Below are positions 14,207 through 17,583 of a DNA stretch of 46,597 bases, piece by piece; the first letter of the stretch is position 1, and the number at the start of each line of letters is the position of its first letter. This DNA comes from Halonotius pteroides (lineage in GTDB: Archaea; Halobacteriota; Halobacteria; Halobacteriales; Haloferacaceae). The stretch lies in the NCBI RefSeq assembly GCF_003605635.1, contig NZ_QMDW01000019.1, positions 1 through 46,597 of the forward strand, written 5' to 3'. Under the pieces are notes generated by a model. The model worked only from the letters and a program-made list of their open reading frames with translations, searched no databases and was not told the DNA's origin. The translations under genes and the position numbers were made by a program.

Positions 14207-14278
14207 ATGTCTTACCACGACACGGAGGACACGTCGGACTCCCCGGCGGATCGAGTTCTTCGAGGGCACATTGACTAA
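14207..14278 (+). CDS. Short ORF over the leuA start, probable frameshifted leuA N-terminus
   Basis: A 23-codon ORF whose product begins MSYHDTEDTSDSPADR and ends VLRGHID. It overlaps the TTG start of leuA by eight bases in another frame. Its first 16 residues look like a normal acidic haloarchaeal N-terminus. The leuA frame just before the TTG reads RIEFFEGTL (14247-14273), which resembles the usual start of haloarchaeal LeuA proteins. The two pieces therefore look like one N-terminus split by a +1 shift near 14249-14253. It could alternatively be a leader peptide. Confidence 0.55.
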   Translation: MSYHDTEDTSDSPADRVLRGHID

Positions 14279-15437
14279 CACTGACGAATTAGAGTCAGTA
14301 CGACTTTTCGACACGACGCTGCGTGATGGCGAGCAGTCACCACGCACCTCGTTTGATTACAACGACAAACGCGCCATCGCCGAGCTGCTCGACGAGATGG
14401 GCACCCACGTCATCGAAGCCGGGTTCCCCGTCAACTCCGACCCCGAGTTCGAGGCCGTCTCGGACATCGCGGCGGCGACCGATGCGACGACCTGCGGGCT
14501 TGCCCGCGTTGTCGAGACGGACGTTCAGGCGGCGATCGACGCTGGCGTGGACATGGTACACGTCTTCGTTTCGACGAGCGACGTGCAGCTCCAGGATTCG
14601 ATGCATGCGAGCCGCGAGGAGGCGGTCACCCGCGCGGTCAAAAGCGTCGAGCAGGTTCGCGATGCGGGCTTGGAGGTCATGTTCTCCCCGATGGATGCGA
14701 CTCGCACCAACGAGGCGTTTCTCGTCGAGGTCGTCGAGGCGGTCAGCGAGGCCGGCGTCGACTGGATCAACATCCCCGACACCTGTGGCGTCGCAACCCC
14801 CTCACGGTTTGCGAAGCTCATCAGGCTCGTCGGCGAACACACCGACGCCCGGATCGACGTCCACACCCACGATGACTTTGGGCTGGCGACCGCTAACGCG
14901 ATGTCCGGCTTCGAGGCCGGTGCCCACCAGGCACAGGTCTCGGTCAACGGCATCGGCGAACGCGCGGGCAACGCGGCCTTCGAGGAGGTCGTGATGTCCG
15001 CCGAGAGTCTCTACGACGTTGACACGGACATCGATACGACCCGGATCACCGAGCTGGCGAAACTCGTCGAGGAGAAATCGACGATCCCGATACCGGTGAA
15101 TAAGGCCGTCGTCGGCGACAACGCCTTCGCCCACGAGAGCGGCATCCACGCCGCGGGCGTCATGGAGAACACCGATACCTTCGAACCCGGCGTGATGACC
15201 CCCGAGATGGTCGGGGCCTCCCGGGAGTTCGTCCTCGGCAAACACACCGGCACCCACTCGGTGCGGAAGCGGTTAGAGGAGCTCAACTACGAGCCCAGCG
15301 ATTCCGAGGTGCGGGCGGTCACCAAACTCGTCAAGGAGTTCGGGGCCGAGAAGGAGCAGGTCACCGACAGCGTAATCGCACGCTTCGCCGAGGAGGTCGG
15401 TGTCAGCGGGGTCGACTCAGAGGAGGTACGGGTCTAA
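14271..15437 (+). CDS. leuA: 2-isopropylmalate synthase (LeuA/CimA family)
   Basis: Condenses acetyl-CoA with 2-oxoisovalerate, the first step specific to leucine. Related enzymes make citramalate, but the neighbours ilvBNC and leuCDB favour leucine. LFDTTLRDGEQSPRTSF begins at residue 11, with the metal-binding RDGEQ; the metal histidines lie in DVHTHDDFGLATANAM near residue 198; SVNGIGERAGNAAFEE and HESGIHAAGV are typical. It ends after 388 residues and so lacks the C-terminal feedback domain of long LeuA enzymes, as in several archaeal forms. The open frame has only a TTG start at 14271 because no in-frame ATG lies upstream. The conserved N-terminal residues RIEFFEG come before it, so the true 5' end may be frameshifted. 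Confidence 0.9.
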   Translation: MTNTDELESVRLFDTTLRDGEQSPRTSFDYNDKRAIAELLDEMGTHVIEAGFPVNSDPEFEAVSDIAAATDATTCGLARVVETDVQAAIDAGVDMVHVFVSTSDVQLQDSMHASREEAVTRAVKSVEQVRDAGLEVMFSPMDATRTNEAFLVEVVEAVSEAGVDWINIPDTCGVATPSRFAKLIRLVGEHTDARIDVHTHDDFGLATANAMSGFEAGAHQAQVSVNGIGERAGNAAFEEVVMSAESLYDVDTDIDTTRITELAKLVEEKSTIPIPVNKAVVGDNAFAHESGIHAAGVMENTDTFEPGVMTPEMVGASREFVLGKHTGTHSVRKRLEELNYEPSDSEVRAVTKLVKEFGAEKEQVTDSVIARFAEEVGVSGVDSEEVRV

Positions 15438-15543
15438 TGTCCGTTCCCTGCTCGTTTGCAGCCGGTGAGCGGCAGCCCCAGCCAGCCGAGCGGGCAACTG
15501 CATCCTCGTGGTCGATGACAAGCCTGGCACCGGGAACACGCAA

Positions 15544-15553
15544 CTATTATTAT
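15544..15553 (+). promoter_or_regulatory. TATA-like box of the ilvB leader
   Basis: CTATTATTATG is centred about 27 bp before the tandem ATG codons at 15576. It predicts a transcript that begins on or next to the leader ORF, more than 200 bp upstream of ilvB. Confidence 0.5.
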
Positions 15554-15575
15554 GAACCGTGTCATTCCTACGGAT

Positions 15576-15656
15576 ATGATGCCACGGCAACTCCCGCTCG
15601 GCGCGTCGGTCGACCGAGTCGGTGCTGTCGGCGTACGCGGTATTGTAGGGGTCTAA
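15576..15656 (+). CDS. Candidate ilvB leader peptide (26 aa)
   Basis: A leaderless ORF of 26 codons and a stop. The product has six Val, two Leu and one Ile, and the end VGAVGVRGIVGV concentrates Val and Ile just before the stop. Those last codons overlap the left strand of a hairpin (15648-15660). The position in front of the acetolactate synthase genes and the content fit an amino-acid-sensing leader peptide. The enrichment is moderate and the ORF short, so chance is possible. Confidence 0.4.
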   Translation: MMPRQLPLGASVDRVGAVGVRGIVGV

Positions 15657-15719
15657 CCCCGACTCCACCTTTTACTCCTACCCCCGGCGTTCGATACACA
15701 CCCCTAGTAGGTGTCGAAC
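15646..15719 (+). promoter_or_regulatory. Candidate attenuator: mutually exclusive hairpins before ilvB
   Basis: Hairpin 1 is GGGGT-CTA-ACCCC (15648-15660), followed by CC-TTTT-A, a short U-run. Hairpin 2 is GTTCGA (15689-15694) with TCGAAC (15714-15719) and an inner CACC/GGTG. An alternative pairing joins TAGGGGT (15646-15652) with ACCCCTA (15700-15706) and excludes both. The left strand overlaps the last Ile and Val codons of the leader ORF, so ribosome position could choose the structure. Base pairing is read by eye, without energies. Confidence 0.4.
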
Positions 15720-15795
15720 TCACACAAACCCGACAGCAAACCATGCATTCACAACCACACACAGCACGCGACCGACCGACCACAGCAGCAGGCCA

Positions 15796-17583
15796 ATGAG
15801 CGAAACAGCCAAATCACACCCCGACGCCGACGAGGAATCGACAACTGAGAAACCGCCCGCCGAAGCGGCAAGCGAGGCCGACGACAACGCCACGCCCGTC
15901 ACTGATGGCTCGACAGCTATCGTCCGCGCGCTCGAAAACGGCGGCGTGGAACATGCTTTCGGCGTTCAGGGCGGGGCGATCATGCCCGTCTACGACGCGC
16001 TGTGGGATTCCGATATCGAACACATCACCATGGCTCACGAGCAGGGCGCGGCCCACGCGGCTGACGCCTACGGCGTCGTCGCCAACGAGCCCGGCATCGC
16101 ACTGGCCACCTCGGGCCCCGGCGCGACCAACCTCGTTACCGGCATCGCCGACGCCAACATGGATTCGGACGCGATGGTCGCCCTCACCGGCCAAGTCCCC
16201 AGCGATATGGTCGGCTCCGACGCCTTCCAAGAGACCGACACCACCGGCGTCACGATGCCGATCACCAAGCACAACTGGTTTGCGGCCTCCGCCGACAGCA
16301 TCGGCGACACCGTCGGCGAGGCGTTCGCGCTCGCGGAGTCCGGCCGCCCTGGCCCGACGCTTGTCGACCTTCCGAAGGACGTGAGTTTCGAGGAAACCGA
16401 CGTTGAGCCGGGTGAGCCAGCGCTTCCTGCCGGCTCCGAACCGCCGACGACAGCCGATCAAGAGAGTGTTGCGGCGGCCGCCAGCACGATCGAGCGCGCA
16501 GAAAAACCGCTGTTGTTGCTCGGCGGCGGCGTCATCAAGGCCGAAGCCACCGACACCGCCCGCGAGTTCGCGCGCGAACACGGCATCCCTGTCGTGACGA
16601 CGATGCCGGGCATCGGAACCTACCCCGAGGACGACGAACTCTGTCTTTCGTGGGCTGGCATGCACGGAACCGGGTACGCCAACATGGCGATCACCCACAC
16701 CGACTGCCTGATCGGCGTCGGCACCCGCTTTGACGACCGGCTGACCGGCGGTATCGACACCTTCGCGCCGGAGGCTGAGGTCGTCCACATTGATATCGAC
16801 CCTGCCGAAATCAGCAAGAATATTCACGCTGATTATCCCTGTATCGGCGATGCGGGGACGGTGCTCGATCAACTCACCGAAGCGATGGATCGAGAGCCTG
16901 ACGCCCGCGAGTGGCGCGAGCAGTGTCAGACGTGGAAAGACGAGTATCCGATGGATTACTCGATCGACAAGGACGCCCCGCTGCGCCCGGAGTTCGTTGT
17001 CGAGGCCTTCGACGAGGCGACCGACGACAACACCATCGTCACCAGCGGTGTCGGCCAACATCAGATGTGGGCCTCTCAGTACTGGGAGTTCACCGAGCCG
17101 CGAACGTGGGTGTCCTCCCACGGTCTCGGCACGATGGGGTACGGGCTGCCCAGTGCGATCGGCGCACGGTTCGCCGCTGACGACGATCAAGGTGTGGTCT
17201 GTTTCGACGGCGACGGCTCCTTTTTGATGACGATCCAGGAGCTGTCGGTCGCGGTTCGGGAAAACCTCGATATCACGGTTGCCGTCCTCAACAACGAGTA
17301 CGTCGGGATGGTTCGACAGTGGCAGGACGCCTTCTTCGAGGGCCGCCACATGGCCTCCGAGTACAACTGGATGCCCGAATTCGACAAGCTCGCGGAGGCC
17401 TTCGGCGCGAAAGGCTGGCGCGTCAACGATTACGACGAAGTTGCCGACAGCGTCGAGGCCGCCCTCGAATACGACGGCCCCTCGGTCATCGACTTCCATA
17501 TCGACCCCGACGCCAACGTCTACCCGATGGTCGCAAGCGGCGCCCCAAATGGCAAATTCGCTCTCTCGGAGGAACAGCTATGA
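15796..17583 (+). CDS. ilvB: Acetolactate synthase, large (catalytic) subunit
   Basis: Joins two pyruvates to acetolactate for valine and leucine, or pyruvate with 2-oxobutyrate for isoleucine. It has 595 aa, including an acidic N-terminal extension of about 35 residues. The N-terminal TPP domain shows HAFGVQGGAIMPVYD and the active-site Glu in HEQGAAHAADAYG. The central domain follows LATSGPGATNLVTGIAD. The C-terminal TPP/Mg motif GDGSFLMTIQEL is near residue 471 with NNEYVGMV after it. The stop overlaps the ilvN ATG. A 200-bp leader precedes it. Confidence 0.96.
   Translation: MSETAKSHPDADEESTTEKPPAEAASEADDNATPVTDGSTAIVRALENGGVEHAFGVQGGAIMPVYDALWDSDIEHITMAHEQGAAHAADAYGVVANEPGIALATSGPGATNLVTGIADANMDSDAMVALTGQVPSDMVGSDAFQETDTTGVTMPITKHNWFAASADSIGDTVGEAFALAESGRPGPTLVDLPKDVSFEETDVEPGEPALPAGSEPPTTADQESVAAAASTIERAEKPLLLLGGGVIKAEATDTAREFAREHGIPVVTTMPGIGTYPEDDELCLSWAGMHGTGYANMAITHTDCLIGVGTRFDDRLTGGIDTFAPEAEVVHIDIDPAEISKNIHADYPCIGDAGTVLDQLTEAMDREPDAREWREQCQTWKDEYPMDYSIDKDAPLRPEFVVEAFDEATDDNTIVTSGVGQHQMWASQYWEFTEPRTWVSSHGLGTMGYGLPSAIGARFAADDDQGVVCFDGDGSFLMTIQELSVAVRENLDITVAVLNNEYVGMVRQWQDAFFEGRHMASEYNWMPEFDKLAEAFGAKGWRVNDYDEVADSVEAALEYDGPSVIDFHIDPDANVYPMVASGAPNGKFALSEEQL

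Follow-up and report, generated by a model that had tools for sequence, protein, structure and literature searches.

The window analyzed here, a 46,597-nucleotide stretch of Halonotius pteroides DNA, carries on its plus strand, in order, leuA, an intergenic region, ilvB, ilvN, ilvC, leuC, leuD and a leuB-like gene. Its closest named relatives are Halonotius species (IlvB 94% to that of Halonotius aquaticus), and tblastn with leuA placed that gene upstream of ilvB in all 128 haloarchaeal loci compared below. An initial annotation had noted a TATA-like box, a short ORF and hairpins between leuA and ilvB, and we found every one of these elements in place (Table 1). Searching the window against Rfam 15, riboswitches included, gave a single hit no better than chance (E = 3, short of the family's gathering score), lying within ilvB but on the other strand.

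Table 1. Genes and proposed leader elements around the start of ilvB, in window coordinates.
Feature	Position	Strand	Basis or remark
leuA-type 2-isopropylmalate synthase gene	14271–15437	+	NCBIfam isopropylmalate synthase models
Bridge ORF, 120 aa, out of frame (+2)	15437–15799	+	Spans promoter, uORF1 and hairpin
TATA-like element of internal promoter, ATTATTAT	15546–15553	+	Seen as ACTATTATTATG around 15544–15554
uORF1, probably leaderless, leader peptide MPRQLPLGASVDRVGAVGVRGIVGV	15579–15656	+	Comparison of loci; in-frame alternative start at 15576
s1, TGCTGTCGG, inside uORF1, complementary to s1'	15623–15631	+	Excess of perfect-match helices
Control codons ATT (Ile) and GTA (Val)	15642–15647	+	Codon comparison over 128 loci
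Hairpin H1, GGGGT 15648–15652 : ACCCC 15656–15660	15648–15660	+	Closing-pair covariation, compensated stems
G-poor pyrimidine tract with TTTT at 15670–15673, candidate termination signal	15661–15677	+	Base composition, 127 loci
Second hairpin, GTTCGA 15689–15694 : TCGAAC 15714–15719	15689–15719	+	Halonotius relatives only
s1', CCGACAGCA, just upstream of the internal start	15730–15738	+	Complementary, with different sequences, in other lineages
uORF2, 18 codons, from an internal start in the bridge frame	15743–15799	+	TGA overlaps the ilvB ATG
ilvB, acetolactate synthase large subunit	15796–17583	+	NCBIfam TIGR00118; first gene of the regulated set

Leader ORF, control codons and hairpin upstream of ilvB

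The check suggested for the proposed leader was an alignment of related haloarchaeal ilvB upstream regions, and across 128 distinct loci (64 named haloarchaeal ilvB loci plus further genomes, with all counts uncorrected for phylogeny) uORF1 and its leader codons are conserved. Of the 123 loci with an in-frame ATG for uORF1, 103 have a TATA-like hexamer that starts 30–33 nt above it, a spacing that likely sets the transcription start at or adjoining that ATG. The ORF described earlier as leaderless is retained in relatives, although its aligned start lies at 15579 rather than 15576. It has a median length of 27 codons (123 loci), and its peptide body is unconstrained, with difference rates of 0.107, 0.103 and 0.100 at the three codon positions. 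Conservation is seen at its C-terminus, which reads (I)-Ile-Val-Gly-(Ala/Val) across haloarchaeal ilvB loci and VGAVGVRGIVGV in the window. Both an ATG below a TATA box and the stop codon are conserved in the comparison, as expected of a leader ORF of the trp/ilv attenuator type, and we regard uORF1 as a putative one.

Codons for the cognate amino acids occupy a fixed place before the hairpin: the first control codon specifies Ile or Val in 128 of 128 loci and the second a branched-chain residue in 127. The codons chosen are rare ones, with ATT at the first position in 102 of 128 loci compared to 13% of Ile codons in window genes, and a strong preference at the Val position for GTA, which makes up 3.6% of Val codons in window genes. 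Branched-chain identity also survives nucleotide change, as in the Val-Val of three loci (L305, L306 and L024) and the Val-Val-Val of L313; further variants are Val-Leu-Val in L160 and Ile-Arg-Val in L307 and L154. The arrangement first noted in this single sequence, with Ile and Val codons upstream of ilvB overlapping a hairpin's 5' arm, is conserved class-wide.

Taken in isolation, the 36-nt hairpin of the window is thermodynamically ordinary (fold z −1.06), so that a single sequence provides weak evidence for H1 and only comparison can decide. Folding an alignment of 92 loci recovered H1 alone. The base closing its stem covaries with the base preceding CCCC (C:G in 91 loci, T:A in 14 and T:G in 10; Fisher p = 4 × 10^-10, uncorrected for shared ancestry), and compensated stems such as GGGCC:GGCCC occur in at least three genera. 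In the window, the uORF1 stop codon (TAA, 15654–15656) sits in the loop and 3' arm of H1, and across the 128 loci the uORF1 stop falls within a GGGG:CCCC hairpin, either in its loop or in its 3' arm. Counting from the first base of the first control codon, an in-frame stop begins 12 or 15 nt downstream in 121 of 128 loci. Between +10 and +21 from ATT, stop codons occur only at offsets 12, 15 or 18, and no TAA, TAG or TGA lies at an out-of-frame offset of this interval in any of the 128 loci, despite a loop of 5–9 nt. What sequence comparison shows to be conserved is that the control codons and the stop codon overlap the hairpin directly.

The combination of uORF1 and hairpin is present in 61 of the 64 named haloarchaeal ilvB loci. 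Counting matches anywhere in the genome, 374 of 391 Halobacteria genomes contain the exact core motif, which rarely matched in controls; adjacency to ilvB was checked for the 128 loci and the exceptions. In one large family the motif matched 69 of 71 genomes. Of the 17 genomes lacking the exact motif, 10 carry variants that keep the design, 1 has lost the leader, 4 are without it and 2 could not be judged. Among the exceptions, Val replaces Ile in L305, L306 and L313; the Val-Leu-Val of L160 and the Ile-Arg-Val of L307 and L154, the latter two with a GGGCC:GGCCC stem, belong here as well. The stem reads GTAGGGCC:GGCCCTAC in L308 and CGGGCC:GGCCCG in L309, L311 combines GGGGCC:GGCCCC with Ile-Ile-Gly-Arg-Val, and L312 has a shifted 3' arm. 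These variants are the best evidence for selection on both pairing and amino acid identity. The leader before ilvB is lost in L310, and none precedes ilvB in four genomes from two families (L314–L317), whose IlvB proteins are the most divergent haloarchaeal ones (56–58% identity); its absence there may date the element to after that split. No obvious leader was seen at seven ilvB loci of non-haloarchaeal euryarchaea. In several genomes of one genus (G016, G188, G212 and G270) there is a second match, ATTGTAGGGGTGCATCCCC, away from ilvB, and ilvB did not adjoin it at either locus checked (L106 and L110).

Bridge frame, internal start and long-range pairings

The same RNA is open in a second frame. 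The bridge ORF begins over the leuA stop codon (TAATG) and ends over the ilvB start codon (ATGA), and an equivalent is present in 124 of 128 loci; it overlaps the ilvB start (ATGA or GTGA) in 103, and in 58 its ATG lies 2 nt inside the stop codon of leuA. In the 60 nt above uORF1, a stretch that includes the TATA box, stop codons in the bridge frame occur in 0 of 123 loci compared to 38 and 47 in the other frames, and the fifty bridge-frame codons above the motif are open in 98% of cases versus 24% in shuffles. A bridge-frame internal ATG, mostly 62–92 nt past the uORF1 stop, is found in 88 of 106 loci, versus 8 and 1 in the other frames and a shuffled expectation of about 29 each. Judged from these frame counts, the bridge frame is kept open and its internal start is under selection. 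We rejected the bridge ORF as a conserved protein: its sequence is not conserved and has no Pfam or NCBIfam match.

Overlaps of the ATGA and TGATG type have been established experimentally in Haloferax to couple translation by termination and reinitiation (PMC6728339). The bridge ORF has stop/start overlaps of this kind at both of its junctions and, by analogy, may be coupled to both neighbors; unlike the Haloferax pairs, it encodes a non-conserved peptide that overlaps the putative attenuator in another frame. We infer that the bridge probably carries leuA-derived ribosomes across the attenuator RNA to ilvB, shielding transcripts initiated at leuA from the attenuator.

As for longer-range structure, TAGGGGT (15646–15652) had been proposed to pair either locally or with ACCCCTA (15700–15706), and covariation of the two pairings had been named as a check. 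Both sequences are present in the window and the local pairing, H1, covaries and is compensated as described above; the switch was rejected, since the sister species have ACCCGCA (L002) and ACCCTCA (L003) in place of ACCCCTA. The second hairpin was likewise rejected as a class-wide element, being altered in L004 and not seen in other genera.

A different pairing recurs in a subset of lineages and is absent in others. An s1:s1' helix of at least 8 bp can form in 25% of loci, compared to 5% of cross-locus pairs and 2% of shuffled sequences, and the 126-nt fold spanning s1 and s1' in the window has a z of −3.29. Strong versions of the helix, formed by unrelated sequences, occur in Halonotius, Halohasta, Natronocalculus and several other lineages (L084–L090, L093–L097 and L155–L157). 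A thermodynamic duplex scan of uORF1 against the downstream region gave no overall excess over cross-locus pairs; the excess is limited to perfect-match helices near the internal start. Because s1' is transcribed only past the pyrimidine tract, an antiterminator role is closed to the helix, whose effect would be on translation; it argues for a translational layer.

Termination signal and model of regulation

Immediately past H1, base composition shifts: G accounts for only 2–4% of positions 0–14 nt downstream, and T peaks at 45% at +10 to +14 compared to a background of 18% (127 loci). A conserved, covarying hairpin is thus followed at 10–14 nt by a T peak, which is short or absent in some lineages (TCTCTC in Haloferax, and several Natrialbaceae); not every lineage, then, has a classical terminator. 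Haloferax termination sites comprise T stretches with a TC dinucleotide, and a hairpin tested there also terminated (PMC7237163), while archaeal FttA favors U-rich RNA (PMC11616081). The tract past H1 appears compatible with both the Haloferax motifs and the FttA preference, and from its position and composition termination there is likely.

We propose that the internal promoter past leuA produces a transcript starting at the uORF1 ATG, on which a ribosome would translate uORF1. With ample charged Ile- and Val-tRNA, the ribosome would reach the stop codon inside H1 and depart, H1 would form, and RNA polymerase would terminate at the G-poor, U-rich tract 10–14 nt on, either by intrinsic termination or with help from the archaeal factor FttA/aCPSF1. 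Under a shortage of Ile or Val, the ribosome would wait at the rare ATT or GTA codon and mask the GGGG arm, H1 would not form, and ilvB would be transcribed. In several lineages the waiting ribosome would mask s1 too, freeing the internal start region for translation of uORF2 and then, by ATGA coupling, of ilvB. That the element is a leader sensing Ile and Val codons, at whatever level it acts, we hold to be very probable. The complete proposal, a ribosome-operated attenuator of the ilvB operon working by direct occlusion of a hairpin, we favor with modest confidence, and it seems to us somewhat probable that termination is the main level of control. The comparison thus bears out one part of the initial reading of an ilv-type attenuator, namely an Ile/Val leader overlapping a hairpin, and not its two-state switch. 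Since a class-wide search for a mutually exclusive antiterminator found none and termination is a step we infer, we do not claim membership in the classical attenuator class.

Control could instead be purely translational, with the stalled uORF1 ribosome gating uORF2 and the coupled ilvB, no termination, and H1 acting as a spacer or ribosome-slowing element. Selection on the internal start with its ATGA overlap fits this well, as do the position of s1:s1' beside that start, its differing sequences between lineages, and the weak T tracts of Haloferax and Natrialbaceae. However, s1:s1' is missing in many lineages while H1 is nearly universal, and the T peak at a fixed distance past H1 would go unexplained; we consider this account possible but rather unlikely.

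Much less probable is a role at the DNA level, in which the inverted repeat would serve a transcription regulator as its operator and the ORF would be incidental. Some loci do have TAGGGG..CCCCTA as a palindrome (50 carry CCCCTA or CCCCCTA), but the spacing of its half-sites varies from 5 to 9 nt while nearly always accommodating the in-frame stop, Val or Leu codons replace Ile, stem changes are compensated, and the repeat lies well within the expected transcript. We likewise give very little credence to an arrest peptide that would detect a small molecule by way of the exit tunnel rather than respond to tRNA charging: a C-terminal Ile-Val-Gly invariant in most loci would suit it, yet the rest of the peptide is not conserved, some loci have Val-Val or Val-Leu-Val instead, and the pheS and trpS leaders described below bear their own cognate residues instead. 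Least probable of all is that the bridge ORF encodes a real protein of which uORF1 and the hairpin are by-products, for although the frame is open in nearly all loci and shows a slight third-position substitution excess above uORF1 (0.205 versus 0.133 and 0.145), its uORF1 and post-hairpin parts show no such excess, it matches no family, and the best-conserved nucleotides track the uORF1 frame and the hairpin.

Related leaders in haloarchaea and comparison with bacterial attenuators

A leaderless ORF that closes with a run of Phe (GFGFFFPA, GFGLFFGA, RFGVRFFFAS) is common upstream of haloarchaeal pheS. We observed such Phe-rich uORFs 180–275 nt above pheS at several loci (L175–L178, L185, L186, L189, L192 and L193; also L174, L179 and L180), followed by a conserved GGTGGACTCC-like stretch; the pheS leader is absent in the Halonotius genomes examined, including that of the window. 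A second trpS is preceded by a leader with Trp codons (PWRWW, RWRW). At six loci of this paralogue (L197–L202), a uORF carries TGGCGCTGG (Trp-Arg-Trp) codons inside a stem CCGCTCCC:GGGAGCGG, which in L200 is replaced by a different yet complementary one, CCGCTGGCG:CGCCAGCGG. No convincing Trp-rich leader was found before trpE, trpD or trpC. In Haloferax volcanii, transcription starts have been mapped for two such uORFs (PMC4983044), one of 26 aa ahead of pheS (HVO_2948) and one of 23 aa ahead of a Trp-tRNA ligase (HVO_A0127). These entries in Table 2 of that paper are likewise short ORFs in long haloarchaeal 5' regions, and their relatives carry the Phe and Trp codons noted above; in the parts of the paper bearing on these uORFs, codon content and amino acid regulation are not discussed, and Table 2 does not list ilvB.

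The similar leaderless leaders before pheS and the second trpS suggest that attenuation may be a general haloarchaeal mode. We tentatively suggest that ribosome-mediated attenuation operates generally in haloarchaea, with Ile/Val at ilvB, Phe at pheS and Trp at the second trpS. At ilvB it would take a two-frame form, internal-promoter transcripts being translated in the attenuator frame and leuA-derived ribosomes bypassing the attenuator in the bridge frame. A class-wide ilvB element together with cognate tRNA synthetase leaders makes the question of archaeal attenuation directly testable in Haloferax volcanii. If the proposal is true, archaeal transcription-translation coupling and FttA-type termination would be tied to a physiological signal. 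The bridge ORF also suggests how the choice of promoter could decide in which of two frames a single stretch of RNA is read.

In bacteria, amino acid attenuation that depends on a translating ribosome is textbook knowledge, and we found no earlier report of it in archaea in the open-access literature searched. From its sequence features, the ilvB element rather probably works like a bacterial amino acid attenuator, in a domain for which that literature holds no such case. It shares with the enterobacterial trp, his and ilv attenuators a leader peptide with cognate codons and a ribosome whose position would decide RNA folding; it differs in having no conserved mutually exclusive antiterminator, the ribosome instead masking a hairpin arm directly.

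A closer layout is found in the Corynebacterium glutamicum ilvBNC attenuator and in the candidate leaders that precede ilvB in other Actinobacteria (PMC11857589, PMC1262725), which share a leader peptide beginning at or adjoining the transcription start and Ile, Val and Leu control codons, including GUA, near or overlapping hairpins. Acidimicrobiia ilvB loci have the same layout (MKPTYTILVLP, MYRLLGIVVT and MSAAALLLVVIV). In our own survey of Acidimicrobiia and other actinobacterial ilvB loci (L066–L081), short leaderless Ile/Val/Leu leaders are followed by strong intrinsic terminators. The haloarchaeal element shares this layout and not the terminator with its immediate T run: the actinobacterial leaders add more hairpins and end in a strong intrinsic terminator (a hairpin plus TTTTT), whereas haloarchaea have one small stop-containing hairpin, a weaker and more distant T tract, an archaeal promoter and polymerase, and the bridge ORF. 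The actinobacterial ilvB leaders are a possible bacterial counterpart, or source, of the haloarchaeal element.
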